64,000 nucleotides of DNA from Proteus terrae subsp. cibarius (GTDB lineage: Bacteria > Pseudomonadota > Gammaproteobacteria > Enterobacterales > Enterobacteriaceae). A program made the position numbers and the translations under genes. Below the pieces are notes generated by a model that had not been told where the DNA came from, searched no databases, and saw only the letters and a program-made list of their open reading frames with translations. The first letter of the stretch is position 1. Each line of letters starts with the position of its first letter. Below, piece after piece: positions 5,042 to 63,615 of the stretch. The DNA is taken from the NCBI RefSeq assembly GCF_011045835.1, contig NZ_CP047349.1, forward strand, positions 2,356,001 to 2,420,000, written 5' to 3'.

Positions 5042-5262
5042 CTCTTTACATCCCGTCCGATTATATTGAACAAAGAGGATCTCTCTAATGAAAGATCCCG
5101 AGGAAATTAATATAAATGTAATATTAAATCTCCAGGCCCCATTTTATGAACATGACACGTAGTAACACTACCTTGTATTACTTAGTTACGATCATTTTCA
5201 AAAGTAGCGAAAAAAACATTTAAATTAAAAGTAAACTTTAAATGCTCGCCAATATAGCTCGT

Positions 5263-5276
5263 TAAGAATAATCCTA
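5263..5276 (-). promoter_or_regulatory. RcsB (RcsAB) box just downstream of the flhDC start site
   Basis: TAAGAATAATCCTA (plus strand) differs at one position from the RcsAB consensus TAAGAATATTCYTA. It lies a few bases downstream of the predicted flhDC transcription start, the position described for the repressing RcsB box of E. coli flhDC. Rcs repression of flhDC and swarming is established in Proteus. The site call is inferred from the match and its position. Confidence 0.72.
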
Positions 5277-5284
5277 ACGCGACA

Positions 5285-5314
5285 ACTTTACTCCTTAACG
5301 ATTAAGTTATTCAA
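5285..5314 (-). promoter_or_regulatory. Predicted flhDC sigma70 promoter
   Basis: On the minus strand TTGAAT (-35, 5309-5314) and TAAAGT (-10, 5285-5290) are separated by 18 bases. A start near 5278 would place the upstream CRP palindrome at about -72 and the RcsB box just downstream of +1, the same geometry as E. coli flhDC. The hexamers are only moderate, as expected for an activator-dependent promoter. Confidence 0.55.
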
Positions 5315-5342
5315 CGGATAAAGTAGTCTAATTTAAATACTA

Positions 5343-5358
5343 TGTGAGTCACATCACA
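5343..5358 (-). promoter_or_regulatory. CRP-binding site upstream of flhDC
   Basis: TGTGAGTCACATCACA is a perfect TGTGA-N6-TCACA palindrome, centred about 72 bases upstream of the predicted flhDC start. CRP-cAMP activation of flhDC from this distance is established in E. coli; activity here is inferred. Confidence 0.75.
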
Positions 5359-6104
5359 AAAAGATAATCATTATTATGGAATTAGTTCATTAACTATTCA
5401 AGTGATAAAAGTAATAAAACTAGGTGTAAATTAATAAGCTAATCTACCCAAATTAAAATATTAATGATAATTTTTTATTTTATACGATCTATTAAACTTA
5501 TAAACCTAAAAATACAGCATAAAAATTTGACAAATCCACAATTGAAGATTTTTTTGATCACAGTAACATATATTGATATATCTCCTCCTCATCTTTATCT
5601 AAACAAGCTTCCCAATTTTAATAAATATTTCTATAGATATTATTTTTTTCATCATTTACGTAAACCTTCAGAAATGATCACTTTTTATTTACAATTTGTT
5701 TGAAAAATAACCTATTCTAATTATTTATAGTTATCCTAAATTTTTTCATTATTTCATAATTGAAATTACTCTTTGAAATCAACATGATACTAAGGTTGGT
5801 TTATTAGGCAGGACGATAAGTCACATAAAATTAAATTCTTAGTTATGCATCTTCACCCTTAAATCATTGAATATTTATTTCCACGCCATTAAAGTTTCAA
5901 TTGTAATAATGCAATTTAACTAATACTTATTAAGTGCTATTTAACACTTAAATTACAGAACTCTTAATAAGAGTTTTATTGGCTGTAAATTAGTCACAGA
6001 GAAATAATATCCACATACAAATAAGTTTTATTTATGAATTACAGTATATATTATGAACAGTGAGAATTTAAAATCTCAACGAGATTAATATAAAATCAAA
6101 AGAA

Positions 6105-6132
6105 TGTTTTTTATTTAATTAAATAAAAAACA
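6105..6132. repeat. 28-bp perfect palindrome
   Basis: The 14-base arm TGTTTTTTATTTAA is followed immediately by its exact reverse complement, with no loop. A hairpin could form on either strand, but the symmetry and zero spacer suit a dimeric protein site or a bidirectional AT-rich terminator better. No adjacent gene explains it. Confidence 0.6.
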
Positions 6133-7187
6133 CCTGAAATTTAATTATCAATTTAAAATGCAATATAAGAATAATACAATATTTAGCTTAAGTTAATTTC
6201 AAAAAAACAATCATCTTTTTATAAAATAAAGCCATACTTTATTAAATTTAAAAATAAAATTAAAAGCACCTTATTTTTTTACTGTATAGATATATATATT
6301 AATTAAACAGCCTAAAATTAATTAAAAATATAACGATCAGTAAAAAAACATAAAGAAAAAAACAGTTCTATTAATTATATTTTATATAACCACTCCTCTT
6401 TTGTTATAAAAAAAAGACATTTTTTGAAATATAAATTTCAATTCCATAAAAAAAGATCCCAAGATCTTCAATATAAAGTAATTAATTCATAAAATAATAA
6501 GACAAAATATAAATTCTGTTTTTCCTGTTATCAGCATTACCTCTGCACAATAAATGACTGTAATGACAAATACGACAACTCCGAGTTAACACTTGTACAC
6601 ATCAGCTTTTTCAATGTAAAGACAGAAAAGCAAATATGATCAAAATAACATCTTATTGATTATTCTATTGGCATTACCTAGAACTAAAAAATATCAAATG
6701 TTACTTTTTACCCCCAAAACAACTCTTAACAGCAATTTGTTTTGCTCTTACAAATGATGAGTATTGTTTCACTTTTCTTCTTATCACTCGGTTAGCTTCT
6801 TTTTTTCAACCTAGTTAGCATAAGTCTCAAGACATTACAGAACAAAAAGTGCTGACATCGTAACAACATCATTACTTAACAAAAGTTGATGTTGACGGGA
6901 TTAGGAGAGCATAAAGATTTAAATATCGATATATCGTTACTTAAAACGATAAAATATATCTCTAAATATTCTTCTATTCTAACCACTAATTTGACTCATT
7001 TTATTACCCTTTTTATGAGTAATTTCGAGTTTCAAAAGACTTTTCCTCTCTATCAAAACCTAATAAAAATATTGATGTATCTAAATAATCAAGGCCCACA
7101 TCTCATTTATTAGATTAATCTTAAAAACCAATAACAATGCTTAGTATTCTATACCCCAAAAGTGTTCTAAATTTTTGGAAAAGAAAG

Positions 7188-7222
7188 CTTTTGAAAAATA
7201 TTGTAACCGTATTTTTCAAAAG
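7188..7222. repeat. 13-bp perfect inverted repeat with 9-base loop
   Basis: CTTTTGAAAAATA (7188-7200) and its exact complement TATTTTTCAAAAG (7210-7222) flank a 9-base spacer, TTGTAACCG. No gene lies within 1.5 kb on either side. It could be the terminator of an unannotated small RNA or a remnant of a mobile-element end. Confidence 0.6.
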
Positions 7223-8699
7223 TAATAATTGAGTTTATTCATGCCGTGAATGCAAATACTTTGTGTATTGCTTTCAGTTCTATTGAAATGAGTTACAGCG
7301 TTTTTTAGTAAGCAAACATGAAATGATTGCTCACTCTTTTATACTGGCAATTTTTTTAATTAGCGTTCCTCTTATACTTGATTTTATCTTTTTTGGTAAA
7401 TCGAAAAAGGTCAGTGGCACAATTATCTTTTATATATATTTCCACTGTAAATACCAATGACACATCTATTTCATACTAAGATAATTCTCTTTCTGTAATA
7501 AGTAAGATTTACATCCTTGACAAAGTTATAAACAATATAATTCTGAAATTATTATTTTATCGAATGAAAGAGGCGGTGTGATTTTTCTACGCTTATTATA
7601 AGATTACTTATTGGTATCATTTTCTCTACATGACCTTTACAAAAAATCCTACAATCTTTCAAAAGATTTTCATTCATCATTGATTAGTGATTACAAACTA
7701 CATACCACAGCAATTCATCAGCTTTACTGTAGCGGTCTAAACTCACCATTTTCCTGAATTCTTCTCCATTTTTTGAGGGGCTAATTTGATTAAATTAAAA
7801 ACATTACTCAAAAAATCAAACTTAAATTAAATGCGATAGAAAATATTGATAAAATTTTCACCAAATACATTGAAATAATTTGAGAGTATAAATTAGGTAT
7901 TAAAAAAAAATCCAATATAATCAATGGAAAACATTGATTTTAACCCAAGATTCTATACTGCGCTAAGCCCCTTAATAACGACTTTTTGTCCTACAATACC
8001 CCTAAGTACCTCATTTAATAAGTAAACCATAAGTAGCAATCGCTTACTTGATTTTAGTTTTTACTGTTTATTAAAAACAAAATAAACAGAGATAAATCAA
8101 ATTGACTTAAAGCGCGAGATTAATAAAGATGAGAAATCACGCCAAATATACTCGAGCTCTGTTCAATATTTTTCATTCATAGCTCATTATATACGGGTTA
8201 ACCACAATGCAAATAATTGTGTATTAATCAATTTAGGTAAAATGTTTGTTTTTATTAAAACGAAAATGAATATATTCCACCCTATTGCGTATTTTAATTA
8301 GCTTTTTTTGAATAGATTTTTCCTTTTTTTATTCCATAAAGTAATAGTTACAAAAATAATAATTACTCAAACAAAATACTTTATTTCTATATATTAGTAA
8401 TAATACGTAATATATGACTAAGATCTCATTATTCTCATCAAAGGAGTTAGTTCTTAAATTAAGTATTATGTTGATGATATGAATAGTTTGAGGTTTGGAT
8501 AGGCAAAAGTGAATGCTTTACTAAGAGCATACAAAAGTATGTAACTGATACGAATAAGCGTAATCCCCGACACAACAGCTTGAAATATGACAGAACTATT
8601 ACTTACAAACTACAAAGTTATATTCTTTATAACTTTTATCAATACTTATATTCTTTTTTGAAATAACTTTGTAAGTTGATATCTAGTTATCTCGATGAC

Positions 8700-8731
8700 A
8701 AAAAGCTCCTATAATCAATACAAGGAGCTTT
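8700..8731 (-). terminator. Terminator of the mgtC-like gene
   Basis: AAAGCTCCT / AGGAGCTTT arms with a 12-base loop lie about 30 bases past the mgtC-like stop. On the minus strand the second arm runs into TTTTTGTC, a typical intrinsic terminator. Confidence 0.75.
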
Positions 8732-8762
8732 GGTTAGAAAGGCATTATTCTCAAAAAACTCA

Positions 8763-9461
8763 TTAAGCAGGATGCTCTGCCGCTATCTTCCAATTAATTG
8801 CACTGACACTCTTCTCTAAACTTACTCTACAAACAATCGCCTCTATCTCTTTTTGCTCAACAGGTGTTGCAAGTAATTCAGCACAAACTTCCAACTGGCT
8901 AGGCATCAATGTATCAGCACTACTTAAAGATTGTAATCTAACATGTAGTCCATTTATTGCTTGTAAAATGAGTGTTCTAACTAAAACCTCATCTTCTTCA
9001 TGACAAATAATTCGTATTGAGTAACGTTGTTCAATGTCTATCGCTTGATGTTGTGGCTGAGCGTTTATCCGCTGAGCAGCTTCTCGTAATAAAATATTCG
9101 CACAAAGAATAAGAAGTGTAGCTATGGTTGCTAATTGATATAAGCCTAAGCCACATAACACGCCAATTCCTGCTGAACACCAAAGCGTTGCGGCTGTATT
9201 AAGACCACGTATATTCATTCCTTCACGCATGATCACACCAGCACCAAGAAATCCAATACCTGAAACAACTTGAGCTGCAATACGACCAGGGCTATCTGGC
9301 GAAGTTTCTATTGAACTTAAAATAAAAACAGCCGCCCCTGTTGCAACTAAAGCATTTGTTCTTAACCCTGCCATTCTTTGCCGCCATTGGCGTTCAGCGC
9401 CAATCAAAGCACCAAGACACATTGCAATTATGAGATTTAAAATATAAGGCGTCATCGTCAT
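8763..9461 (-). CDS. mgtC: MgtC/SapB-family inner-membrane protein
   Basis: MgtC proteins are inner-membrane factors. In Salmonella, MgtC is PhoP-induced at low Mg2+ and inhibits the F1Fo ATP synthase. The 232-residue length matches Salmonella MgtC (231). The family signature is clear: LGALIGAERQWRQRMAGLRT, SGIGFLGAGVIMREG and GLNTAATLWCSAGIG, with four to five membrane helices in the first 130 residues and a soluble ACT-like C-terminal domain. Unlike Salmonella, no mgtB follows. About 350 bases of leader precede it, with a mini-ORF and hairpins, which suggests attenuation control. Confidence 0.88.
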   Translation of the reverse strand: MTMTPYILNLIIAMCLGALIGAERQWRQRMAGLRTNALVATGAAVFILSSIETSPDSPGRIAAQVVSGIGFLGAGVIMREGMNIRGLNTAATLWCSAGIGVLCGLGLYQLATIATLLILCANILLREAAQRINAQPQHQAIDIEQRYSIRIICHEEDEVLVRTLILQAINGLHVRLQSLSSADTLMPSQLEVCAELLATPVEQKEIEAIVCRVSLEKSVSAINWKIAAEHPA

Positions 9462-9506
9462 GTTTATTTCCTCTACATGATGATTAAAATCGATATGAAA
9501 ATTTTG

Positions 9507-9522
9507 CTCTGATAGTTCAGAG
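9507..9522 (-). promoter_or_regulatory. Attenuator-like hairpin in the mgtC leader
   Basis: A perfect 6-bp stem with a 4-base loop (CTCTGA-ACTA-TCAGAG on the minus strand), followed by CAAAATTTTC, lies 8 bases after the stop of the proline-run leader ORF and about 45 bases before the mgtC start. A ribosome stalled on the proline codons could influence its folding. Function is inferred from position. Confidence 0.5.
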
Positions 9523-9530
9523 TATTGAAA

Positions 9531-9581
9531 TTAATCCATCACCTTAGGTGGAGGAAATAAAGAGAAAAAAATGTAGCACAT
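9531..9581 (-). CDS. Proline-run leader peptide of mgtC
   Basis: A 16-codon frame, MCYIFFSLFPPPKVMD, starts at ATG 9581 with a good ribosome-binding site (GAAGGG, about 7 bases upstream). Three consecutive proline codons sit at residues 10-12. Salmonella mgtA and mgtC leaders use proline-rich mini-ORFs (mgtL, mgtP) whose slow translation under low charged-tRNA-Pro or low Mg2+ raises expression of the downstream gene. The same design here is inference from codon content, a hairpin directly downstream and the leader context. Confidence 0.65.
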   Translation of the reverse strand: MCYIFFSLFPPPKVMD

Positions 9582-9815
9582 GAAGTTACCCTTCGTATTT
9601 TAGTTGTATAAGGGAAATCATTTGGGTAAGTGCAGAATAGGAATATATAGGAAAGAGATATTACAATGCACTGCCCACCAAAATGGTAAGCAGTTTCAGT
9701 GAAGAAAACAGCCTACCTATTATTTTGACTAAAATTATTCACAGTTAATGGATTTCTCATTAACCTACAACTTTGTGTATCCAAGGTGTTTTCTCCTAAC
9801 TAAAATTTAGGCAAA

Positions 9816-9861
9816 AGTATAAGTAGCTGATTTGAAAATGTAAATGAACAGTACCTAAACG
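9816..9861 (-). promoter_or_regulatory. mgtC promoter with a candidate PhoP box
   Basis: Minus-strand TTTACA (9839-9844) and TATACT (9816-9821) are spaced by 17 bases, each matching five of six consensus bases, and predict a start near 9809. Immediately upstream, CGTTTA-N5-TGTTCA (9845-9861) resembles the PhoP direct repeat (T/G)GTTTA-N5-(T/G)GTTTA. The box sits one helical turn further upstream than the classical position overlapping -35. Confidence 0.5.
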
Positions 9862-9865
9862 TAAG

Positions 9866-10060
9866 TCACTTTTGCTGTATTGGTCTAACGAATGTTCCTT
9901 CTCCACCCTCTTTTTCATTAAAAAACCAAATTCCTTTTGGATACTCGGGAAGTGATACTAAATACATTATGCCTTCGTTAAATTCTTCAATAAGTAGAAT
10001 TGTTCCTTCACGATCGTCAATGCCATCAGTTTTCACAACAACGCTATCATTAACCTGCAT
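9866..10060 (-). CDS. dsrB: DsrB-like small protein
   Basis: This 64-residue protein ([20 protein letters not shown]...) aligns from memory with E. coli DsrB (62 aa) across its length: a KVNDxVxVKTDG start, an EEFxEGxMYLVSL core and the YPxGIWFFNE segment. DsrB has no known function; in E. coli it lies beside the small RNA dsrA and rcsA. Here its neighbours are cspC/E and mgtC. It has no membrane segment or signal. The fold is likely all-beta, judging from the alternating hydrophobic pattern. Confidence 0.7.
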
Positions 10061-10107
10061 TTTCTCTCCTGATAAATATTATCATTCTCTTTTTCTTTAT
10101 TTTACCC

Positions 10108-10144
10108 ATAAAGAAAAAGCCTGCCACCATAAGGTGACAGGCTT
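10108..10144 (-). terminator. Terminator of the cold-shock gene
   Basis: Minus strand AAGCCTGTCACC / GGTGGCAGGCTT (one G-U pair) with a 4-base loop, followed by TTTCTTT, lies 27 bases past the cold-shock stop. It is a strong intrinsic terminator, so dsrB is probably transcribed separately. Confidence 0.88.
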
Positions 10145-10170
10145 GAAGAAAATTTTTAAAAGGCTTTAAA

Positions 10171-10383
10171 TTACAGAGCTGTTACGTTAGCAGCTGCTGG
10201 ACCTTTTGCACCGTTTTCAATTGTGAATTCTACGTTCTGACCTTCAGCCAGAGTTTTGAAACCGTTACCTTGAATGGCAGAAAAGTGAACGAATACGTCT
10301 TTGCTTCCGTCTGCTGGAGTAATAAAACCAAAGCCTTTAGACTCGTTGAACCACTTAACTTGACCTTTCATTTTGTCAGACAT
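10171..10383 (-). CDS. cspC: Cold-shock-family RNA chaperone (CspC/CspE type)
   Basis: A 70-residue single cold-shock domain that binds single-stranded RNA/DNA and melts RNA structure. The RNP1 (KGFGFI) and RNP2 (VFVHFSAI) motifs are intact. Residues 6-53 read like E. coli CspC ([20 protein letters not shown]), while the C-terminus ([14 protein letters not shown]) is closer to CspE, so the paralogue assignment is uncertain. It is monocistronic, with a strong terminator downstream and a long AT-rich upstream region. Confidence 0.9.
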
Positions 10384-10838
10384 GTGACTTTCCTATATAT
10401 CAATAAAACGTTGCCTTCTCGGCATCTACTGGCCTGAACTACCTATAACTTATGGGCACACATGAAGAAAACGGTCAAAAAGCGATGCTGTTTAAAACTC
10501 ATTAACTTAGAATGTCAATCATAAATCAGGTCTGTATTGAGGCCTTACTCATTAACGCATGAGACAAGTTTAATAGCAATAGTTTTATGCGTCTAAAGAT
10601 TAAAAAAATGCGAATTGCACATTAAAAATACAATTCTTCCTCTATTTTTATCACTGTGCATAAAATTTATTTGATATTTTATCTCTATTATTAACAACAA
10701 CTAAGAATATTCTTAATGGCCTAACAATAACAGTTAATGCCAGATTTAAAAAAAACTGTTCTACCCGCTTATCTTGTCCCCGTGATAATCTAGTAACAAG
10801 AAACAAGTTTGCAACATTCATCTCTTAAGGTGTTTACA
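10384..10838. other. Divergent intergenic region between cspC and ylaC
   Basis: About 455 bases without a gene. It must hold the cspC promoter/leader (minus) and the ylaC promoter (plus); GATAAT at 10784-10789 is a candidate ylaC -10 without a good -35. I do not see a reliable cold-box match. Confidence 0.4.
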
Positions 10839-11345
10839 ATGAATGTATTAAAAGAAATCTTAGAGCGTGATTTAGACCGGATCAATAAAGCAGAGAAAAG
10901 AGACGGAAAACCACATTTTAATAGTCAATTTTTAAAGAACCATATCTGGTTATGTATCAGCATGGTTCTCTCTTATGTATTACTCGCTGCGTTATTAATT
11001 TATTCACCTTACTTTGGTGTTATCTCACTCGTGCTTTTTACTGTGATGTTTTTAGTTATGGCTGGTATCTTGTTATTTGATATTAAGCCTATCTATAAAT
11101 TTGAAGATATTGGTGTTCTCGATTTGAGAGTTTGTTATAACGGTGAATGGTATACTTTTGAAAAACTCTCTGATGAAGCCATAAATGAGATCCACCAGCA
11201 CCCAGCGATATCTCAACAAATAAAAGAAGACATTCGTGAGATTATTAGTAAAAAACAAGAAATTCATTTTTACGATGTGTACTTGATGGCATTTGATCCC
11301 GTTCAACAATCAATTGCAGCATCACAATTATCTCCTCAAGCCTAA
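10839..11345 (+). CDS. ylaC: YlaC-family inner-membrane protein
   Basis: The predicted protein of 168 residues begins at ATG 10839, with AAGG eight bases upstream; an in-frame ATG 30 bases earlier lacks a ribosome-binding site. It matches E. coli YlaC in layout: a charged N-terminus (NKAEKRDGKP), two adjacent membrane helices (residues about 40-85), and a conserved cytoplasmic part beginning FEDIGVLDLRVCYNGEWY and ending KKQEIHFYDVY. The function of YlaC is unknown. Confidence 0.85.
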   Translation: MNVLKEILERDLDRINKAEKRDGKPHFNSQFLKNHIWLCISMVLSYVLLAALLIYSPYFGVISLVLFTVMFLVMAGILLFDIKPIYKFEDIGVLDLRVCYNGEWYTFEKLSDEAINEIHQHPAISQQIKEDIREIISKKQEIHFYDVYLMAFDPVQQSIAASQLSPQA

Positions 11346-11445
11346 TTTATTCTCCGTGTTACATATAAAACACGGGGAATAATTTCTATTATTTAGCCAC
11401 TTTGTTGATAAAGCAACCAAATAGATATTTAACCCACTTTTAACG

Positions 11446-11474
11446 TTGACACTCTGATATATCATCGTTATTAT
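11446..11474 (+). promoter_or_regulatory. Promoter of tRNA-Asn copy 1
   Basis: TTGACA (11446-11451), 17 bases, TATTAT (11469-11474), then a GC-rich discriminator (GCGCCTCG) typical of stringently controlled stable-RNA promoters. Confidence 0.85.
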
Positions 11475-11500
11475 GCGCCTCGTTCTCAAGAGAACTCGCT

Positions 11501-31407: not shown

Positions 31408-33150
31408 TTACCAGCCATAAGAAACGCCCCCGCCTACAACACCGCGATCTTCTGTATTCCATGAAGCTGAAACACGAATAATGGCGCTTTCTGTTATTTG
31501 ATACTGAGCACCCGTTGCAAATGCATTAGCATCGCGATAATTACCCACTCCAACACCTAAACTAAACGTGTGATTGGTTACGTAAGGAATATTAGCCATC
31601 GCCGCGACAGAAGCAATCCCGGCACTTGCTCTTTTATCTGCTTTATCGATTTTATTATCCATATTCTTAAGTGCAATATCATTATCAATAAAGATATTCT
31701 TAAATTTATTATTGGTATATTCATTTGCAATAGAGATAGAGTCATGTTTTGATTTTTCAATATATTCCTTCAGCGATTCATCTCTTTCATTAATTATCGT
31801 ATTGGTCACATTTATATACTCATTTCCTTTTTGAGTAACATAGCTTTGATGTTCTTTGGTTAATTTCTCATTATTTTTTCCAATAAGTCCTTCTATACCC
31901 GATGCTATTTTACTAATCTCAATATCGGTATAACTATTGGCATTTTTTTCTGATGCGTTAACCTTTCGCTCTGTTGAAAAGGTAACTTCATCCTTAATAT
32001 TGTTAACGTGTTCAACTATTTTCTTATCGTGTTCGTTGACTTTAAAGTCAGTGTATTCTTTAATATTTTTTTCAGACTCATTGATCCTATTATTTGTGCT
32101 CTTCTCTATTACTTTCTTCATATTATTTATTTTATTATCAGTATAACTTTCCGCACCTTTTTTTATTTCATCTGCTTTTTTATTTGTATAATTTTCAGTA
32201 TCTACTTTTAGATCAGATAATTTTTCTTCATTATAAAGATACATTTCACTTTTAACTTCATTGATATAATTAACAGTATTAGTCTGATACTCATTGATTT
32301 TACTATCAGTATATTGATTTGAGTTTTTTTCTGCATTTTCTGCGAATGTTTTTGCTTTAAGCTCGCTCTCTTTTAAGACTGCTTCATTTGCCTTTATGAT
32401 ATCTCCTTGTATTATCTTATTATTTTCATTTATTTGTTTTGTTGTTGCTTCAACAATCGTATTTTTCTCTTGCTCAATTTTATTATAAATAGTGGTATTA
32501 TTATCATTAATGCGCTTATCAGCCTCAATAAGAATATTATCTTTTTCTTTTTTTAATTGAGAAACATTGACGGCATCTGTATTTTCCGTACCTGCTGCAA
32601 CATTAATAATTTGCCTCTGGTTTTTATCACTACCGATTGATAATGTATTATTACGATTATTACTGCTATTATCACCTAATATAATCGCATTACTTGCTGA
32701 TCCTGAAGACTTACTACCAATAATCACTGAATTCTCTGCGTTATCAGAAAGGCGACTACTACTACCTAAAATAACACCATTCTCAGCATTATTTATTACT
32801 CCTTTCCCTATACTAATTGAGTCTTTATTTTCACTATAAGCCTGAGAACCTATAGAAAGAGAACCCTCACCAATTGCCATTGCACCACTTCCCAATGACA
32901 TCGCATTATCACCAATTGCCGTACTTCTATGTCCTATTGCAGTTGCATTTTCACCTTCAGCACCTGCATTAGCACCGATTGCCGTTGATTGATCAGAATG
33001 CGCCCACGTATTATATCCAACAGCCGTAGATTCATTACCGTCTGCTTTACTATTTCCACCCAATAAGGTTGTATTATTTGCATAAGATAAAGGTGATGAT
33101 AATAATGAAATCACTAACAGCTTTACCTGAAAATATTTATTTTTAATCAT
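31408..33150 (-). CDS. Trimeric autotransporter adhesin (YadA-like)
   Basis: A type Vc secreted adhesin of about 580 residues. The signal peptide (MIKNKYFQVKLLVISLLSSPLSYA) is followed by a YadA head of left-handed parallel beta-roll repeats (AxAIGxxAxAxGxxxxAIGxxS, residues about 30-175), a neck (AAGTENTDAVNVSQLK), and a long coiled-coil stalk of TDxKINExxK-type repeats. It ends in the C-terminal four-strand membrane anchor (ASAGIASVAAMANIP ... GVSYGW). The final aromatic residue is typical of outer-membrane insertion. The anchor is complete, so the protein should be functional. P. mirabilis encodes similar adhesins (AipA, TaaP); this one is not clearly either. Confidence 0.92.
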   Translation of the reverse strand: MIKNKYFQVKLLVISLLSSPLSYANNTTLLGGNSKADGNESTAVGYNTWAHSDQSTAIGANAGAEGENATAIGHRSTAIGDNAMSLGSGAMAIGEGSLSIGSQAYSENKDSISIGKGVINNAENGVILGSSSRLSDNAENSVIIGSKSSGSASNAIILGDNSSNNRNNTLSIGSDKNQRQIINVAAGTENTDAVNVSQLKKEKDNILIEADKRINDNNTTIYNKIEQEKNTIVEATTKQINENNKIIQGDIIKANEAVLKESELKAKTFAENAEKNSNQYTDSKINEYQTNTVNYINEVKSEMYLYNEEKLSDLKVDTENYTNKKADEIKKGAESYTDNKINNMKKVIEKSTNNRINESEKNIKEYTDFKVNEHDKKIVEHVNNIKDEVTFSTERKVNASEKNANSYTDIEISKIASGIEGLIGKNNEKLTKEHQSYVTQKGNEYINVTNTIINERDESLKEYIEKSKHDSISIANEYTNNKFKNIFIDNDIALKNMDNKIDKADKRASAGIASVAAMANIPYVTNHTFSLGVGVGNYRDANAFATGAQYQITESAIIRVSASWNTEDRGVVGGGVSYGW

Positions 33151-33156
33151 ACCCAC

Positions 33157-54290: not shown

Positions 54291-55766
54291 TCAATCAGCT
54301 ACAAAAACTTGAATGTAATTTGCATAATCTCCATTAGCACTAACTAGTTTTCGACCATTACTTGTTGTTTTTATTCTTAAGAAACCACTCCCACCGTGAG
54401 TAATATTGATGTAAACATCATCTATTGGGGGTAAGGTGCCAAAAGTCCAAGATTTATCTTCATCATTTCTATTTAAGTATATAGTTTTTCCACGTATATC
54501 CTCTGTAACATCTATGGCTTGATGACGATCTATCGCGCCACCAACTTTACGCCATCCTTTGCTTATTCCTTTTTTCTCATACCGACTATCAGACTCACCT
54601 TTGGAATAACTATAACCCGATGCTAAATAATTCCCTTTCGGTTGATATTTTCCATCAGACTCACCTTTTGAATAAGCCCCCACATCAGCTGCTGTCGGTT
54701 TATTTTGACTATTAAACTCTTTAGCCCAAGGTGTAAAATTACCTTTATCATACTGGCTACGAGAATAAATACGGCTAGTGTTATAAACATAATAAAGCTG
54801 GGTAATGCCTGCATTTTTTAAAACAATTAATGTCCCCGCCATCGCTTCTGGGTAATTTAAGTTTGTTGTTGCATTCGCATTTGCAGGCTGAAAATAGATA
54901 CCCGCTGTTTTATAGTTATTTAAATTTTGATTCGCGCCAATTGAGATCGCTTGACCATTAAAAATATCTTGCGATGTTACCGTCACATCACCACTTAATG
55001 GCTTATTATTGACTTTTCGTGCCGTAGTCACATAGTTACCTTTAGCTTGATATTTATTATCCGCTTCAGATTTTGAGTAACTATAACCCGCTGCTTGGTA
55101 ATTCCCTTTTCCCTGATATTTACTATCAGATTCTGCTTTAGTATAGCTTTCGCCTTTAGTCGCATAATTTCCCGCAGGCTGATAACTTCCTTTTGGCTGA
55201 TATTTACCATCCGATTCTACTTTGGTATAGCTTTCCCCTTTGTTAGCATAATTTCCAGCTGGGGCATAATTCCCTTTAGGTTGATATTTGGTATCAGATT
55301 CTGCTTTTGAATAACCATAGCCTTCAGCTTGATATTTACCTACAGGTTGAAAACGTTTATCTGCATCACCTTTAGAATAAGCACCTACATCATTTGCATT
55401 AATATCAGCTTTTAATTCAATCCATGCATTACCTGCGACTGGCTCAACATTATTATTTTCAATTTTAGACTGCCAAACTTTATTTTTATGATAAACCACA
55501 CTACGAATAGGGTAAGGTTTCCCCGCTTCCGACCACTTAGCAAAACCCTGCAATTGCATTTCACCAATAGACTCGGTGATATCGTGAAATAAACTATTCA
55601 TTTTTTCACGTTCAATATCTTTTGCAGCCGGATCAGTCACTTGGTCACGTTCATAATCATAACCATAACCTTGTGTATAAGACACAGAACCATCAGATTG
55701 TATTTCAACAGGTACAACTGTTTTATCCCCTTGTGTTGCAAAGGGGGTTTTAAATATTTTAGTCAT
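54291..55766 (-). CDS. Phage tail fibre with repetitive shaft and pyocin-knob-like domain
   Basis: A 491-residue tail fibre. Residues about 110-255 carry at least five copies of a 15-25-residue repeat of the form YSKxESDxKYQxKGNY, a triple-stranded beta-fibre shaft. A pyocin-knob-like domain follows (VTSQDIFNGQAISIGANQNLN ... SQYDKGNFTPWAKEF), then two more repeats and a unique C-terminal 90-residue tip, presumably the receptor-binding part. It is last in the tail module. Confidence 0.85.
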   Translation of the reverse strand: MTKIFKTPFATQGDKTVVPVEIQSDGSVSYTQGYGYDYERDQVTDPAAKDIEREKMNSLFHDITESIGEMQLQGFAKWSEAGKPYPIRSVVYHKNKVWQSKIENNNVEPVAGNAWIELKADINANDVGAYSKGDADKRFQPVGKYQAEGYGYSKAESDTKYQPKGNYAPAGNYANKGESYTKVESDGKYQPKGSYQPAGNYATKGESYTKAESDSKYQGKGNYQAAGYSYSKSEADNKYQAKGNYVTTARKVNNKPLSGDVTVTSQDIFNGQAISIGANQNLNNYKTAGIYFQPANANATTNLNYPEAMAGTLIVLKNAGITQLYYVYNTSRIYSRSQYDKGNFTPWAKEFNSQNKPTAADVGAYSKGESDGKYQPKGNYLASGYSYSKGESDSRYEKKGISKGWRKVGGAIDRHQAIDVTEDIRGKTIYLNRNDEDKSWTFGTLPPIDDVYINITHGGSGFLRIKTTSNGRKLVSANGDYANYIQVFVAD

Positions 55767-55771
55767 AGGGA

Positions 55772-56428
55772 TTATTCTCCGAAATTACTCTTCAGAAAGT
55801 TTTTACGATATTGACCATAACCAAAAGCTTTTTTGGTTATGATGCGATATTTGACACCTACACCTGAAGGGCGAGGCATTAAATCGAAGTTTTCTAATAA
55901 AAGGCGTAAACGTTCATCTGGATTAAAATTAAAAACGTAATACATATACGTCATATCAAAAGGATCGAGCACAAAAACCTTGCTATCCTCACGCCAGAAA
56001 AAACGTTTAAGAAATTCATTAATATTGGTTACGGTAGGACTTTGAGTGAGATTGAAATAACGCATTCTCACCAGCATTCTTTTTTGATCTAAAGTCAGCG
56101 ATAAAGTGTAATCAGCATTTCGTCGAAAATTTGCTTTAAAATTGGTTTTCTTTTTACCAAAACCAAAACCTATTTTGTTTTTATCACTAGGAGGAATATC
56201 GATACCTAAAGGTACATCTAAAATACGTGACCATACTGATAAACCAAAATCGTTAGCTGTATCAATATTAAAGATATCTCGATACCAGTTTTGCCAAAAA
56301 GTAACCGTAGATTGATTAAAGTAAATAGCTTTTAAATGTGCTAATGCTTTTAATTTATCTGCGTTTTCATATTGCCAGAGGACTGCTTTTAGTAGATCAG
56401 AATGAAAATCAAATTCTTGAATATTCAT
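55772..56428 (-). CDS. DUF2612-family baseplate protein
   Basis: A 218-residue protein between baseplate J and the fibre, the usual place for DUF2612 proteins that link the wedge to the fibre. Typical features are KALAHLKAIYFNQSTVTFWQNWYRDIFNIDTAN, WSRILDVPLGI and TNINEFLKRFFW. Its start overlaps the end of the baseplate J gene by 4 bases (ATGA). Confidence 0.8.
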   Translation of the reverse strand: MNIQEFDFHSDLLKAVLWQYENADKLKALAHLKAIYFNQSTVTFWQNWYRDIFNIDTANDFGLSVWSRILDVPLGIDIPPSDKNKIGFGFGKKKTNFKANFRRNADYTLSLTLDQKRMLVRMRYFNLTQSPTVTNINEFLKRFFWREDSKVFVLDPFDMTYMYYVFNFNPDERLRLLLENFDLMPRPSGVGVKYRIITKKAFGYGQYRKNFLKSNFGE

Positions 56429-57612
56429 ACGATCACCACTTGTACTGCCCCTTTTGGTAATCGGGCAATTTGATTAAGTTTGATAGGAATTAATGCAACA
56501 TTCCAATTTTTTCCATCTGTTGAAAGCTCAACTTTAGTGACAAATAAATGAGGCTCAACCGCATTAACCGCTGCTGAAATTTCAAAAGGAGAAATTTCTC
56601 GCCCAACCACCAACCCATTATCTCCATCTATTTCGCCCTGAACCCATTTCTCTAACGCATTAGGAATAATGGTTTGCGCATCAATATTGGATTTTTTTAC
56701 AGAAACACGGCAAAACACAGGCACTTCTTTCGGGCGTGAAAACTTAATAGGATATTCTTGCTCACTTGCTGGCTCTATTACATTTATTTCAATATCACCA
56801 TTAAATGCAGCGCCTATTGTTTTTGTTCTTAATAATGATTTAGCAATTTCATGGCTATCTCCACCTTCTACACACACATAAATGCTGTGAGGTAATAATG
56901 AGATACCATCGACAACCAACGCTTTATCATTAAAATTTTCACGAAAAGAAAGGGAATTAACTCCCTCTAATTCATATAACGAAGAGGTAATCGCTTCTGC
57001 AACACTGACGGTATTTTTAGCTAATGTTTGTTTACGCCGACGCCTTGCCTTTATATCTGACTCAGCATGGCGACCAACAACAGCATGGGTTAAGTTATTC
57101 ACTTTTTCCCATCCTAATACAGAACTTGCTACTTTATTTAATTGCCCAACGCCACAAGCAATAGGGCCATATTCTTTGGCTCGCATATCGCCTTTAATTT
57201 TCCCGTTATTAGCGATAATTAATGGTGATAACGTTTCAAAGGTAGCACCTGTTATTGTGAGAGCCTGAGAGCCTTTAGGAATAATAGTACCGGGGATACC
57301 AGTAAACTCGACGTCACTTAAATAGGAATGTGTGGCATTAATACGCTCTCCGCCCATTAACGCCCAAATTGCATCGAGAAAAACACCACCAGCAATATCG
57401 GGATTTATTTGATTTGCGAGCTCAGCATTATTACGAACAATGGCATCTCTATTTTCAATTTCCATAGTTGCCAATACCCCTTGTGGGGTTTCTGGCGATA
57501 AATTAATAGATTGACCAAATACAGCGCGAAATTCATCTTCGACATTATTTCGTAACGTCGATGTGTCTGGAACAATCACCCCTTTATTATTAATATAACG
57601 ATAGTCAGCCAT
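56425..57612 (-). CDS. Baseplate J-like wedge protein
   Basis: A 395-residue Baseplate_J (gp47/gp6-like) protein that forms the baseplate wedge. Characteristic segments are the start ITxNGVIVPDTSTLRNNVEDEF-type region (here NNKGVIVPDTSTLRNN), AGGVFLDAIWALMGGER, GTIIPKGSQA and the RRRKQTLAKNTVS region, then NSLSFRENFND and PHSIYVCVEGG. It overlaps the gp25-like gene by 8 bases. Confidence 0.9.
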   Translation of the reverse strand: MADYRYINNKGVIVPDTSTLRNNVEDEFRAVFGQSINLSPETPQGVLATMEIENRDAIVRNNAELANQINPDIAGGVFLDAIWALMGGERINATHSYLSDVEFTGIPGTIIPKGSQALTITGATFETLSPLIIANNGKIKGDMRAKEYGPIACGVGQLNKVASSVLGWEKVNNLTHAVVGRHAESDIKARRRRKQTLAKNTVSVAEAITSSLYELEGVNSLSFRENFNDKALVVDGISLLPHSIYVCVEGGDSHEIAKSLLRTKTIGAAFNGDIEINVIEPASEQEYPIKFSRPKEVPVFCRVSVKKSNIDAQTIIPNALEKWVQGEIDGDNGLVVGREISPFEISAAVNAVEPHLFVTKVELSTDGKNWNVALIPIKLNQIARLPKGAVQVVIV

Positions 57613-57949
57613 TCAATGTAAATCCTCCATATATCGTGCGTATATCTGCCTGATATTTCAATGTCCCCTCTTCTAGAAAAGCATGGAAATAAGTGATAGC
57701 AACAACTTCCTCTATTTCTGCAATACGTTGTCGAAATGCCATTTCAAATAAAGGTATATCTACTTGTCGACTAAACGTTGCTGACCAATAAGGAATTCCT
57801 TTATCTTTTTTATGTAGCATTTCACCGCGTACAGCTTTAATAAAATGCTGACAAACGTTTTTTACAGCTTCATCGTTGTCGCAAATTTGAAGGTTACCAT
57901 CAGCACCTATCGCAAAATCATTCTGCTGATTTATTGAAAATGTCCTCAT
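57605..57949 (-). CDS. gp25-like baseplate wedge protein
   Basis: A 114-residue protein in the position of T4 gp25 / W-type wedge subunits, between the spike and baseplate J. The pattern FAIGADGNLQICDNDEAVKNVCQHFIKAVRGEMLHKKDKGIPYW, with its AVRGEM core, is typical of the gp25 lysozyme-like/DUF2634 group. It starts 4 bases inside the spike gene's end, so translation is coupled. Confidence 0.78.
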   Translation of the reverse strand: MRTFSINQQNDFAIGADGNLQICDNDEAVKNVCQHFIKAVRGEMLHKKDKGIPYWSATFSRQVDIPLFEMAFRQRIAEIEEVVAITYFHAFLEEGTLKYQADIRTIYGGFTLNG

Positions 57950-58638
57950 ATTGGACTCCCTGTATTATCTTTCCCTGATTGCACTCCACTATGAGTATGT
58001 GTTGAGCCGATATCCTTTCCGTTATGGCGCATCACTCCACCTTGTGAATCACTATTACCATTTACGGCGTAATTACCATTAACCGTCACATTGCCAGTAA
58101 ATATCGTTTCAGGTGCATTGATTTCATATTTTGGGGCTTCTAATACAACTTTATCGTTATGAAGAGAGAAACAGACTGAACCATCCATTGACTGAATAAC
58201 CAAGGCATCAATATTCTCCCCATCAATCGCCCATCCTTTGATCGTATCAGGAAAAAACATAGCATCACTAAACGAATGTAATCGTGTTGTATTGGGTTGA
58301 TCTTCCAAACCACCACGTTGAAAAATAAGGCTAATATCGCGATCACTCGCCTTTAGCCAGCCAAAGTCACCCGGTTTAATTGGCGCTCTAATAAAAAAAC
58401 CTCCACCACCAAATCGAAACACGGGAATATTAGCAACCGGTGCCCGAGAGATTTTTTCATCATCCGTAGTCAACATCATGACCAAAGGTTTGATCATGGC
58501 TCGATTAGTTTGCTCATCATAATTAATGACGGTTGCGGGTAACATATCATCTGTATTCATCATTAAATGGCGAAATGCAGACGAAAAAGCCCCTGCCAGT
58601 GAACCAACACTGGCAATATCATTATTGGGTTTACTCAT
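57946..58638 (-). CDS. Membrane-puncturing spike protein (Gp138-type)
   Basis: A 230-residue central spike. The N-terminal OB-fold (ATVINYDEQTNRAMIKPLV, VFRFGGGGFFIRAPIKPGDFGWLKASDRD) fits the Gp138 N-terminal domain. A beta-helix (TGNVTVNGNYAVNGNSDSQGGV) and a metal-binding tip, GSTHTHSGVQ, follow; the HxH motif binds iron in related spikes. It abuts the hub gene. Confidence 0.85.
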   Translation of the reverse strand: MSKPNNDIASVGSLAGAFSSAFRHLMMNTDDMLPATVINYDEQTNRAMIKPLVMMLTTDDEKISRAPVANIPVFRFGGGGFFIRAPIKPGDFGWLKASDRDISLIFQRGGLEDQPNTTRLHSFSDAMFFPDTIKGWAIDGENIDALVIQSMDGSVCFSLHNDKVVLEAPKYEINAPETIFTGNVTVNGNYAVNGNSDSQGGVMRHNGKDIGSTHTHSGVQSGKDNTGSPI

Positions 58639-58640
58639 AA

Positions 58641-59459
58641 TTAAGCTCGTTTACACGTTGCGGTATAAGTGAAATCTGCATCATGTGAAGCAACTTTAAA
58701 TTCAAGTTGCTCAATAATGTAGTCACCATTTAGTGAGGTATTTAATTTGCTATCGAGGCGAAGCATTCCGCCTAGTTCAGATGTGCTATCGATAAGATAA
58801 CTCACCGTTAAGCCACTCTCAGTGGCTTTGGGAATGCCAATCATGCCTGAATTCATATTCAAAATACGAAATCGGCTTTTTAATGCTTTATCATCATCTT
58901 TTACAAATAACGTATCATCATCAATAAAAGCTTTAACATTTCCCGACTCTTGTAAACGCTCTATTTGATGTAATGCAGAGCCACAATAATACCAATTAGC
59001 AATATTCTTATCGGTTGCCTGAAAATCCAATTTCACGCCACAATCATTAGCAATGGTTAACGCGATTTCACTCAATTTTTGAATTGCGCCACCACTAGAA
59101 GAAATAATTTTTCCAGAACAATGGTGGCTAGTTTTTGCAGATAACGTTACGGTGACATCCGGAGGAGAGTCTATTTCTGCACTGACAATATCGCCAATAA
59201 AAAGTGAGAATAGCCCAGAGTTAATTCGACCAACTTCTAAATAAAGTCGTCGAACTTGCTTATTTTTATTATAAGGACTTGTTTCCGTCAGCAAATAATC
59301 TCTTGTTTCGGTATTAAGCCCTGTAATAGCGATTTTACATTCGTTTTGTAATGGATTTGCATATTTCTTTCCTCCTGCTGATATACGCAATCCTTCATAC
59401 CATTGAAGCCTTTCACCGACCTCAATCCCCACCCTTATTCGCCGAAGCTCCATCTTCAT
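58641..59459 (-). CDS. Baseplate hub protein (gp27-like)
   Basis: A 272-residue protein between the plug and spike genes, in the position of the trimeric hub that bridges tube and spike. It begins with a beta-rich domain (RRIRVGIEVGERLQWYEGLRISAGGKKYANPLQNECKIAITGL), then DIVSAEIDSPPDVTVTLSAKT and a C-terminal FTYTATCKRA ending typical of hub proteins. The start lies 38 bases inside the preceding gene in another frame. Confidence 0.75.
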   Translation of the reverse strand: MKMELRRIRVGIEVGERLQWYEGLRISAGGKKYANPLQNECKIAITGLNTETRDYLLTETSPYNKNKQVRRLYLEVGRINSGLFSLFIGDIVSAEIDSPPDVTVTLSAKTSHHCSGKIISSSGGAIQKLSEIALTIANDCGVKLDFQATDKNIANWYYCGSALHQIERLQESGNVKAFIDDDTLFVKDDDKALKSRFRILNMNSGMIGIPKATESGLTVSYLIDSTSELGGMLRLDSKLNTSLNGDYIIEQLEFKVASHDADFTYTATCKRA

Positions 59460-59742
59460 TACTCCAATACACTAATGATTGTGTTTTTGTAAATTCCTCA
59501 TACCACGGTAAAGCATCATTTTCTGTTAGAAACATTAAATTAATCCCCTGGTTTAAATATCGATAAGGGATAATAGGTGTATTAGCAACTAAGCGAATAC
59601 CTGTAATAAGCACTTCACTATCTCGCTCAATATCAAAAAACATTGTTTGATTAGCGACTTTTAGCGTAAATGTCCAATCAACACCGGCTATTTCGATAGA
59701 AAATCGCTGATTAGGAATAGCTTGTAATGGAATAACTTGCAT
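59422..59742 (-). CDS. Baseplate plug-like phage protein
   Basis: A 106-residue beta-rich protein (VIPLQAIPNQRFSIEIAGVDWTFTLKVANQTMFFDIERDSE) that resembles the plug-type baseplate family (Pam3 gp18-like). It lies between the Dit-like protein and the hub, where such proteins sit in compact myophage tails. Its 3' end overlaps the hub gene start by 38 bases. Confidence 0.7.
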   Translation of the reverse strand: MQVIPLQAIPNQRFSIEIAGVDWTFTLKVANQTMFFDIERDSEVLITGIRLVANTPIIPYRYLNQGINLMFLTENDALPWYEEFTKTQSLVYWSNEDGASANKGGD

Positions 59743-59760
59743 TTTATCTATCTCCTATTT

Positions 59761-60243
59761 TTATTTTTTTCCTGCTTGTGTTGATTTTTTACTTTTGACA
59801 TTACCACGATTAACTGTTGAGGTTTGTTTTGGTTTTTTGGTCGATTTAGAGGATTTTTTATTATATTCGGGCACTATTGTTTTCCATTCTGTAAATTTAA
59901 GTTTTAATTCGATGGCATTCACTTTTTGGGGATCTTCATCGTGAGTCAAACTTTCTAACAACATTGGTTGATAGGTTCTGACTCTAGTTTGAATTCCCAC
60001 TAATGTATGTTCGTCATAAAGCTGCTTTATAATAGAATAACGATCCGCAATATCACCCGTTAATAGTAACTCGACACCTATATTAATAGGATTAATAATG
60101 ACGTGGTCGCTACGATTTTCGCCATTTTCAACCGCAAATTTAATGACTTGATGACTATCAGTAATTGAAACTTTCATCGGATTAACGCTATCAAATAGCG
60201 TTGTGAATGACTCTAAATCAAAAATTCTAACTTCCGTTATCAT
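59761..60243 (-). CDS. Dit-like tail/baseplate protein
   Basis: A 160-residue protein directly after the tape measure. The pattern ITEVRIFDLESFTTLFDSVNPMKVSITDSHQVIKFAVENG ... INPINIGVELLLTGDIADRYSIIKQLYDEHTLVGIQTRVRTYQPMLLESL matches the Dit-like/distal tail N-terminal domain of compact contractile phages. The last 35 residues are a Lys/Ser/Thr-rich, basic, probably disordered tail, which is unusual. Confidence 0.72.
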   Translation of the reverse strand: MITEVRIFDLESFTTLFDSVNPMKVSITDSHQVIKFAVENGENRSDHVIINPINIGVELLLTGDIADRYSIIKQLYDEHTLVGIQTRVRTYQPMLLESLTHDEDPQKVNAIELKLKFTEWKTIVPEYNKKSSKSTKKPKQTSTVNRGNVKSKKSTQAGKK

Positions 60244-60245
60244 AG

Positions 60246-62549: not shown

Positions 62550-62704
62550 TATCTCTCCTTTGACGCGGCAAGCGCCTCGTTATAACGATTAGTAATCGCG
62601 ATCTCCCACAGATCAAAGGCTTCTTCTAGATCTATGGTTGTTTTGAGTTCTGTGAAGGAGGCGAAACCCGCGGAGATGATGACTGCAAAGAAGCCATCAG
62701 CGTT
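62549..62704 (-). CDS. Tail assembly chaperone -1 frame extension
   Basis: A frame of about 51 codons with no start codon, overlapping the end of the chaperone gene in the -1 frame and stopping at the tape measure ATG. It reads NADGFFAVIISAGFASFTEL..., then a segment containing LEEAFDLWEIAITNRYNEAL, a sequence of normal composition that looks like real protein. In the overlap the 0-frame is Ser/Pro-rich and low in complexity. A run A-AAA-A at 62703-62707 (0-frame ATA AAA ACG) is the likeliest slip point. Phage tail chaperones commonly make a minor long product this way. Confidence 0.75.
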   Translation of the reverse strand, partial: NADGFFAVIISAGFASFTELKTTIDLEEAFDLWEIAITNRYNEALAASKER

Positions 62705-63090
62705 TTTATAATCGACGGGAGAGAACCGCTGAACTTGCCTAGAAGGTATTGTAGGAAATTTTGGCTCCCGTCTTTGCCGAAAAAACTGGTATTGTACTTC
62801 AACATTTCGAGCTCAAGACGGATCAAAGCTTCTCCATCGGGTACATGATTATCAATTAATGTGCTGGTTTTTAGATAAATTTCTTGCCCTTCTTTTTCGA
62901 TTGCAACATAAGCCATCATTTTTAACATGGCTTCTTTGCTAACTTCATAATCACCAATTTTGGGTGCATTTGATAAAGGGTATTTAGCAAGAATTTCTCG
63001 TCCAATCGTTGCAGGTAATCGGCTAATAATAAAAGTGTGTTCTTCACGATCACTATCAATAACAGTGATCTCTTTTGGTTTAATTAACAT
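62632..63090 (-). CDS. Tail assembly chaperone, short form
   Basis: A 152-residue protein upstream of the tape measure gene. Its conserved portion (ITVIDSDREEHTFIISRLPATIGREILAKYP ... YVAIEKEGQEIYLKTSTLIDNHV) resembles tail assembly chaperones of compact myophages. It should coat the tape measure during tail assembly. The last 25 residues are Ser/Pro-rich and overlap a better-looking -1 frame (see the extension entry), so a frameshifted long form of about 190 residues is expected as well. Confidence 0.8.
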   Translation of the reverse strand: MLIKPKEITVIDSDREEHTFIISRLPATIGREILAKYPLSNAPKIGDYEVSKEAMLKMMAYVAIEKEGQEIYLKTSTLIDNHVPDGEALIRLELEMLKYNTSFFGKDGSQNFLQYLLGKFSGSLPSIIKTLMASLQSSSPRVSPPSQNSKQP

Positions 63091-63152
63091 AATTAAATTC
63101 CATAAAAAAGGCGACCGAAGTCGCCATTACATTAAATGAATAACGCTAAAAA

Positions 63153-63605
63153 TTAACGTGCTCTGACACGATCAAAGTCTTGGAAAATAAAGGTGTATTG
63201 CTTAGATTTAAGGCGAGCATTGTTTGATATTGAATTACCACGGCTACCATTAGTAATTCTGCCATTACGAGCAGTGGTAATAGAACCATCACCATAAGAA
63301 GCCACTAGTGTAATAATATCGCTTGCATGACGACGTCCTCGTCTTGCTGTATTTGCATCAAGCAAAATAGCCAAGTTTTCATCTTCTTCGCTACCTGCTA
63401 ATACGTTGATTGTCACAGTTTGAGGTGTAGGTGCCGACCAACTCACTAAATTACCATTAATATCTACTGCGGTTGCTGTAATATCGACAGCCGGTAAATC
63501 TAATGGATCACCCTCATCCGAAAATGTGGTAATAGGAATACCTGCAGGAAATGTGTTACTTGCCTGAATAATTAAACTCAAACCTGTTGCTGAAATATCG
63601 TTCAT
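63153..63605 (-). CDS. Tail tube protein
   Basis: A 150-residue beta-rich protein between sheath and chaperone, the standard tube position in contractile tails of this type. It contains an Ig-like stretch (DLPAVDITATAVDINGNLVSWSAPTPQTVTINVLAGSEEDENLAILLDANTARRGR) and a C-terminal YTFIFQDFDRVRAR that is similar in style to DUF3277-type tube proteins. Family placement is from context and pattern, not a search. Confidence 0.7.
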   Translation of the reverse strand: MNDISATGLSLIIQASNTFPAGIPITTFSDEGDPLDLPAVDITATAVDINGNLVSWSAPTPQTVTINVLAGSEEDENLAILLDANTARRGRRHASDIITLVASYGDGSITTARNGRITNGSRGNSISNNARLKSKQYTFIFQDFDRVRAR

Positions 63606-63615
63606 TGTTTGTTCC

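Follow-up and report, generated by a model that had tools for sequence, protein, structure and literature searches.

The mgtC leader of Proteus: an mgtM/mgtP tandem with a predicted pairing between stall codons and the mgtC Shine-Dalgarno sequence, in genomes lacking an MgtA/MgtB-family match

Results

The mgtC locus

The window analysed here is a stretch of 64,000 nucleotides from Proteus terrae subsp. cibarius (NZ_CP047349.1, positions 2,356,001 to 2,420,000). The mgtC gene is located on its minus strand (Table 1). The product matches the NCBIfam equivalog NF011912, 'MgtC family protein', with 331.1 bits (cut-off 255), and its identity with MgtC of Proteus cibi is 100% (rounded). A second mgtC-like gene is present in the genome (G000 C1:3794522-3794905, locus L002; 44% identity over 117 residues), and one such match per genome is found in all 20 Proteus genomes. 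From 5' to 3', the mgtC leader is composed of a PhoP-box-like repeat and promoter, a TTG-started ORF, three short segments, a mini-ORF, a small hairpin and the mgtC Shine-Dalgarno sequence.

Immediately upstream of the mgtC promoter, dsrB (9866-10060) separates it from a cspA thermoregulator (RF01766, 195.6 bits, 10114-10524) that lies over a CspC/CspE-like gene. At the gathering threshold, this cspA element and four tRNAs are the only Rfam matches in the whole window, and no mgtC-leader family is among them. With E values up to 1, region 5042-10100 gave just two chance matches far under their gathering scores, one of which (U12) falls on the mgtM stretch. Four tRNA-Asn (GTT) genes are spread over 3 kb (11501, 13642, 14071 and 14468). 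Elsewhere in the window, ORF 31408-33156 resembles a trimeric autotransporter adhesin with YadA head, stalk and anchor, and region 54291-63951 carries a minus-strand run of phage-tail-like genes, likely a prophage as judged from ORF translations only.

Table 1 Features of the mgtC locus and its leader
Feature	Position	Strand	Description
mgtC	8763..9461	-	232 aa; PF02308 and PF21770
mgtC Shine-Dalgarno region GAGGAAATAAA, partner of mgtP codons	9463..9473	-	fold predictions
Right arm of inner helix, directly before mgtC Shine-Dalgarno	9477..9487	-	predicted fold
Small perfect hairpin CTCTGA/TCAGAG, 6 bp	9507..9522	-	sequence; 8 bases past mgtP stop
mgtP 3' end, left arm of inner helix with 9487-9477	9531..9542	-	predicted fold
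mgtP ortholog MCYIFFSLFPPPKVMD	9531..9581	-	ATG at 9581; 16 codons and stop
Anti-Shine-Dalgarno TTTATTTCCTC within mgtP	9551..9561	-	from codon 7 (third base) to codon 11 (first base)
mgtP Shine-Dalgarno GAAGGG	9589..9594	-	sequence
Segment 3 GGTGGGCAG	9671..9679	-	stem B
Segment 2 CTGCTTACC	9685..9693	-	stem A with segment 1 or stem B with segment 3
Segment 1 GGTAGGC	9711..9717	-	stem A with segment 2
mgtM counterpart, TTG ORF LDTQSCRLMRNPLTVNNFSQNNR	9713..9784	-	24 codons with stop; stop inside segment 1
GTTAATG/CATTAAC hairpin inside mgtM	9744..9764	-	arms 9764-9758 / 9750-9744
Promoter TTTACA-N17-TATACT with PhoP-box-like repeat upstream	9816..9861	-	pattern and conservation of repeat
Weak mgtB remnant, residues 350-393 of Providencia MgtB	7857..7988	-	downstream of mgtC

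The promoter (9844-9816) has 10 of 12 consensus matches. The initial annotation had called it good. Sites of this sigma-70-like type are not in excess in region 8000-11500 (13 found versus 14.8 expected). The PhoP-box-like repeat, CGTTTA-N5-TGTTCA (9861-9845), deviates at 2 positions from the consensus. At 2 mismatches, the pattern occurs 39 times in the whole window versus 47.8 expected, so that taken alone it is not significant. GTTTA-N6-GTTCA nevertheless occurs at the equivalent position of 20/20 Proteus leaders. PhoQ is encoded in the genome. By homology, transcription of the mgtC leader would be PhoP-dependent.

mgtP is conserved across Enterobacterales

The mini-ORF corresponds to the earlier description of a 16-codon ORF with an excellent ribosome-binding site and three consecutive proline codons (CCT CCA CCT at codons 10-12). 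Its distribution was studied at 145 loci, that is, a table of 146 from which L153, with a broken mgtC, was set aside; in these counts, L154-L156 repeat places already in the table and some other loci are also one place entered twice, while L162-L176 (about 40% identity, another family), weaker matches and the distant loci L013-L022 and L024-L082 are excluded. An ATG mini-ORF with the motif L[F/L]PP[G/P] is found upstream of mgtC at 135 of the 145 loci, of which 93 are distinct. The motif is missing from ten loci: L012; L221, in which no mgtC start was found; and a set of eight MDWK-type rows (L148-L152, L159-L161), three of which are duplicates. The proline run is kept in 20/20 Proteus and, as LFPPP, LFPPG or LLPPG, across Enterobacterales. 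The lack of conservation that would have refuted the initial proposal is not seen, and a proline-codon leader of mgtC is confirmed.

SLFPPP is present in all 20 Proteus genomes, SLFPPG in Providencia, Serratia, Xenorhabdus and Budvicia, ALFPPG in Yersinia and Morganella, and ALLPPG or ILLPPG in the genus of G250. SLFPPP or ALFPPP is found in G102, G197, G277, G022 and others, a group that we take to be Salmonella-like from its layout. Genus labels of the numbered genomes were assigned from identity to named loci; the genus of G044, for example, is Serratia by identity of L125 with L008. In a named Proteus mirabilis record, mgtP reads MCYVFFSLFPPPRLL. At residue 12, the 93 distinct leaders have G in 61 cases and P in 32, with a motif that admits only these two; listings of any ATG ORF with PP and a search with a looser motif showed no other residue 12 in related leaders.

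Codon usage points to selection on the mgtP peptide, since among the distinct leaders the leucines of the motif are encoded by six codons and the glycine by four. Within Proteus, codons 5-12 read FFSLFPPP in 20/20 genomes, with synonymous changes at codons 6, 7, 8 and 11. Residues 13-17 vary, and the stop is shifted in L098, L100 and L101. A short ORF in AT-rich surroundings could have arisen by chance in a non-coding leader. The preserved start, frame and FFSLFPPP, with only synonymous changes over codons 5-12, and the presence of the motif at 135 of 145 loci argue against this reading, which we take as refuted and whose probability is negligible.

In Salmonella, mgtP is a 17-codon ORF with three proline codons; a response to limiting proline requires codons 10 and 11, and codon 12 is dispensable (Lee & Groisman 2012, PMC3641672). 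Consecutive prolines at codons 10 and 11 are found in the Proteus mini-ORF. Moreover, the Fig. 1B legend of the same paper lists an mgtP alignment of Salmonella, Dickeya, Photobacterium, Serratia, Yersinia, Proteus mirabilis and Photorhabdus. The mini-ORF is an mgtP ortholog, and the idea of a sequence unrelated to Salmonella mgtP has to be abandoned. The leader itself is known, and for the genus it has been partly in print since 2012, when Proteus mirabilis mgtP was listed.

mgtM and the alternative stems A and B

The upstream TTG ORF also exists as initially reported, with 24 codons and AGGAG (9797-9793). Its coordinates had been given slightly too wide, as 9797-9710, and its identity as the mgtM counterpart had been missed. 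Among the 20 Proteus leaders, the start codon is TTG in 16, GTG in 2 and ATG in 2, and the length varies from 14 to 24 codons with the stop. In 19/20, the stop occupies one constant position within segment 1; in L095 it is four bases earlier, in another frame. An mgtM-like ORF with a Shine-Dalgarno-like sequence, ending beside segment 1, is found in 18/18 cluster representatives across the order. The encoded peptide begins mostly with L/M-[D/E]-[S/T] in these 18 representatives; in PMC3641672, the deduced mgtM peptide is described as not conserved. Taken together, the leader almost certainly contains the orthologs of the mgtM/mgtP tandem.

The three-segment pattern is found in 116 of 126 distinct leaders and is absent in 10, including three distinct Morganella. 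The free position of the segments is C-G-C in 73 of the 116 leaders, T-A-T in 31 and a G-U-compatible mixture in 12; non-pairing combinations do not occur. The segments change in concert across genera, simultaneously at three places, in support of stems A and B as alternatives that exclude each other. Within Proteus, all pairs of both stems are kept. Such alternative stems are known from the 5' portion of the Salmonella leader (PMC3641672, PMC6908480). The GTTAATG/CATTAAC hairpin pointed out by the initial annotation was located inside mgtM. One of its pairs changes from U-A to C-G in 4/20 Proteus, and 2-3 rows have gaps.

Predicted pairing between mgtP codons and the mgtC Shine-Dalgarno sequence

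The small hairpin past the mgtP stop is real as a perfect 6-bp stem. The stronger predicted helix of the leader is not this hairpin and involves mgtP codons with the mgtC Shine-Dalgarno sequence. Over 11 bp, bases 9561-9551 match the reverse complement of 9473-9463 without a mismatch (helix 1), and they are paired in the minimum-energy fold. The fold of segment 9596-9435 has an energy of -35.4 kcal/mol versus -24.1 (sd 3.4) for shuffled sequences, none of which is as low (0/200). Each of the 20 Proteus leaders keeps 8-11 of the 11 pairs, and an RNAalifold consensus recovers 9 of them. In the Salmonella leader, the last mgtP codons make up the left arm of stem-loop C. In Proteus, an inner helix (9531-9542 with 9487-9477) is predicted, which is paired in 80.9% of cells over the 20 Proteus, with 8-11 of 11 pairs in 17/20 and 3-5 in L098, L100 and L101. 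Not all segments fold equally well: the fold z is below -2 in just 11/20 Proteus segments (mean -1.98), L087, L088, L093 and L097 have values between -0.75 and 0.04, and helix 1 is not formed in the ensemble of L090 (0.1 pairs) and L093 (1.2).

Within Proteus, the covariation signal is not strong enough to establish helix 1. The whole-structure score is 0.088 versus 0.071 in shuffled alignments (3/500 as high), a difference that, as the tool itself warns, relatedness can give, and the five pairs changed on both sides are equalled in 54/500 shuffles. Because helix 1 is nearly invariant, with one pair changed on both sides and an RNAalifold covariation term of 0.01, covariation says little about it.

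The comparison was extended to other genera with a threshold, per leader, of 4 or more expected pairs joining the LFPP codons of mgtP to the Shine-Dalgarno sequence, identical segments being merged (e.g. L086=L003, L189=L005, L125=L008, L119=L011) and segments longer than 260 bases being omitted (Xenorhabdus and Budvicia loci, L006, L188 and L194). Such pairing is predicted in 18/20 Proteus, 17/21 Providencia, 3/3 Morganella and 2/14 leaders of the genus of G256. It is predicted in 0/25 leaders of the Serratia genus (G044), 0/12 of the genus of G250 and 0/9 Salmonella-like leaders, all of which show a local hairpin at the mgtC Shine-Dalgarno sequence. Conversely, at least 4 expected local pairs at the mgtC ribosome-binding site, which stem-loop D holds in the Salmonella leader, are found in 9/9 Salmonella-like leaders and in 0/20 Proteus. 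Leaders beyond these main groups do not follow a single pattern; pairing between mgtP and the Shine-Dalgarno sequence is, for instance, predicted in L129, L133 and L137 as well. From these fold predictions, the Proteus switch seems to be folded differently from that of Salmonella.

A test for an order-wide constraint on pairing between mgtP codons and the mgtC Shine-Dalgarno sequence gave no support: the 18 clusters show no cognate preference (permutation p 0.29). Proteus and Providencia, which form one cluster in this test, rank 3/18.

Codon 10 of mgtP

In the 93 distinct leaders, the first proline codon (codon 10) is CCU in 84 cases, CCC in 1, CCG in 6 and CCA in 2. Codon 11 is far more diverse (53 CCA, 20 CCG, 16 CCT and 4 CCC). 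The eight CCG/CCA exceptions form one cluster, in which mgtC has no GGAGG Shine-Dalgarno sequence. This clade (L147, L157, L158 and L236-L243, within the genus of G256) keeps the LFPPP of mgtP and has AGGCGACA before mgtC in place of GGAGG. A compensatory reading, with GGCG for GGAG, fails for the CCA members L158 and L241. L133 has no GGAGG, yet shows 9.6 expected pairs. In L134, CCU is kept, GGAGG is absent and 1.5 pairs are expected, which speaks against pairing as the sole reason for CCU. The codon bias may reflect RNA pairing or m1G37-dependent decoding of CC[C/U]-[C/U]; the present data fit either.

PPP and PPG are strong EF-P-dependent stall motifs. A search of PMC11611912 for these motifs found no mention of them. 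In PMC5299641, mgtC and mgtB mRNA levels are reported to rise when EF-P is lost, an effect exerted through the proline codons of mgtP. Two proteins of the EF-P family (PF01132) are encoded in the genome.

Probable decay of mgtB in Proteus

No match to TIGR01524 (MgtA/MgtB) at E 1e-50 was found in any of the 20 Proteus genomes; in the genome studied here, the best score is 73 bits versus a cut-off of 610.75. No P-type ATPase motif is present in the 0.8-3 kb analysed downstream of mgtC at the Proteus loci, and an mgtC-mgtB operon is not found there. The motif is also absent from the 1.5-3 kb downstream of mgtC in 4/4 Morganella loci and in 12/12 loci of the genus of G250. The 3.7 kb between mgtC and flhD (5042-8762) contain no ORF of at least 80 aa and have 25.8% G+C versus 36.0% for the window.

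With Providencia MgtB as the query, a weak remnant was detected in this stretch (Table 1), with E values of 0.008 in a joint search and 7.6e-4 alone. The same query gave 5.5e-5 in L252 (two collinear stretches), 1.6e-5 in L253 and a weak 0.056 in L254; in L003 no stretch was detected, and in L255 no E value was below 6.5. As a control, the reversed MgtB protein gave a best E of 0.88. Stretch 5042-8762 is 79-92% identical over 2.9-3.7 kb in L252, L003, L253 and L254, and over about 1.0 kb in L255. It also contains a 35-base imperfect palindrome (85.7%) at 7188-7222, matched in L252 and L003. Because of the remnant traces downstream of mgtC and the absence of an MgtA/MgtB match in Proteus, the most likely history is decay of mgtB with retention of mgtC and the two leader ORFs. 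With mgtB lost, the output of the leader would be MgtC without MgtB.

Discussion

The best overall explanation of the locus is an mgtM/mgtP tandem-attenuator leader of mgtC in a Proteus form, to which we give a probability of about 0.78. By homology with the published logic, transcription would start under PhoP control and the position of the ribosome on mgtM would set stem A versus stem B. A ribosome slowed at PPP, because charged tRNA-Pro or EF-P is scarce or tRNA-Pro is undermethylated, would then lead to more mgtC expression. That the stall turns mgtC on is probable. In Proteus, the Leu-Phe-Pro-Pro codons are predicted to serve as the anti-Shine-Dalgarno of mgtC. With no ribosome on mgtP, or after fast translation, these codons would base-pair with GAGGAAAUAAA, keeping mgtC closed; when a ribosome is held at PPP, it would cover them and open mgtC translation. 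The stalled ribosome may also keep Rho off the transcript. If the stall codons are the anti-Shine-Dalgarno, one pause would both sense the signal and physically open the next gene. It is about an even call whether this pairing is the main off-state.

A switch of the Salmonella type, without direct pairing to the Shine-Dalgarno sequence, has a sizeable chance of being correct, if short of even. The stall would alter just the balance of stem-loops C/D versus E and thereby transcription elongation, perhaps in a Rho-dependent manner, and the complementarity of CCUCC to the Shine-Dalgarno sequence would be a by-product of the proline codons. This is the model published for Salmonella (PMC3641672); it is consistent with the lack of cognate preference across the order, and the pairing of the mgtP 3' end with bases before the Shine-Dalgarno sequence recalls stem-loop C. 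Against it, none of the 20 Proteus leaders reaches 4 expected local pairs while 18 of them pair the Shine-Dalgarno sequence with mgtP codons, and the match in the window extends past CCUCC to 11 bp. Classical attenuation, with the small hairpin as an intrinsic terminator, is very unlikely. The stem is perfect, lies eight bases past the mgtP stop and is whole in 15/20 Proteus. Two more leaders retain 5 of the 6 pairs, but L098, L100 and L101 keep only 2-4. The bases that follow are CAAAATTTTC, with no U-run, and a terminator scan lists nothing on the minus strand of 9462-9820. A G+C-rich stem with a U-run before the structural gene, as in trp/his-type attenuators, is not found in this interval.

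The nature of the signal raises another question. The leader might sense Mg2+ through tRNA methylation, CCU followed by C being an m1G37-dependent slow spot: low Mg2+ would reduce TrmD activity, translation of mgtP would slow at CCU-C and mgtC expression would increase. This sensing would act by way of the stall described above and could be what the leader truly responds to. The near-constant codon 10 (CCU or CCC in 84 + 1 of 93 leaders) next to a mixed codon 11 speaks for it. According to the review PMC6335274, in a model for mgtA, CC[C/U]-[C/U] tends to undergo +1 shifts when m1G37 is missing, and TrmD depends on Mg2+. On the other hand, the eight exceptions fall in one GGAGG-less cluster, which fits RNA pairing equally, CCT is also common among the proline codons of mgtC itself in several clusters, and the signal tested in PMC3641672 is proline limitation. 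We consider this sensor rather unlikely.

The tandem-attenuator reading places the Proteus leader close to the Salmonella mgtCBR leader (PMC3641672), with an mgtM-like ORF and alternative stems upstream, then mgtP with its proline codons 10-12, and mgtC next. It differs from it in two respects: no MgtA/MgtB-family match is found in 20 Proteus genomes, and the Proteus mgtC Shine-Dalgarno sequence is predicted to be hidden by mgtP codons rather than by a local stem-loop. The mgtL leader of Salmonella mgtA, to which the initial annotation had also compared the locus, is likewise a proline-codon ORF before an Mg2+-related gene, and slow mgtL translation turns mgtA on (PMC6335274). However, mgtL is a different ORF, called unrelated to mgtP in PMC3641672, and Proteus has no gene above the MgtA/MgtB family cut-off.

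Translation attenuators provide a parallel in the way of working only, with no homology. In erm and cat leaders, a stalled ribosome frees the downstream ribosome-binding site. In Proteus, a stalled ribosome is similarly predicted to melt a helix that hides the next Shine-Dalgarno sequence. Unlike in erm and cat, the stall codons themselves would form the hiding arm; the signal, the gene and the origin also differ.

A search by title and opening of the abstract, its scope lying mostly outside the subscription literature, found no papers on the Proteus leader, on mgtB loss in Proteus or on a helix between mgtP codons and the mgtC Shine-Dalgarno sequence. New here are the lack of an MgtA/MgtB-family match in Proteus together with a weak mgtB remnant, the predicted codon/Shine-Dalgarno pairing and the CCU bias at codon 10. 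Tentatively, and at a little less than even odds, we propose that in Proteus, Providencia and Morganella the stall codons are the anti-Shine-Dalgarno, and that the switch has outlived the loss of MgtA/MgtB in Proteus, so that the selected output would be MgtC itself and not Mg2+ import.

The comparison makes several questions testable: the reason for the near-constant CCU, RNA pairing versus m1G37-dependent decoding; the reason for P or G at residue 12 in all leaders counted; and which of the two, MgtC or the Mg2+ pump, is served by the leader. Having retained the leader after losing the pump, Proteus would offer a natural experiment on this last point.
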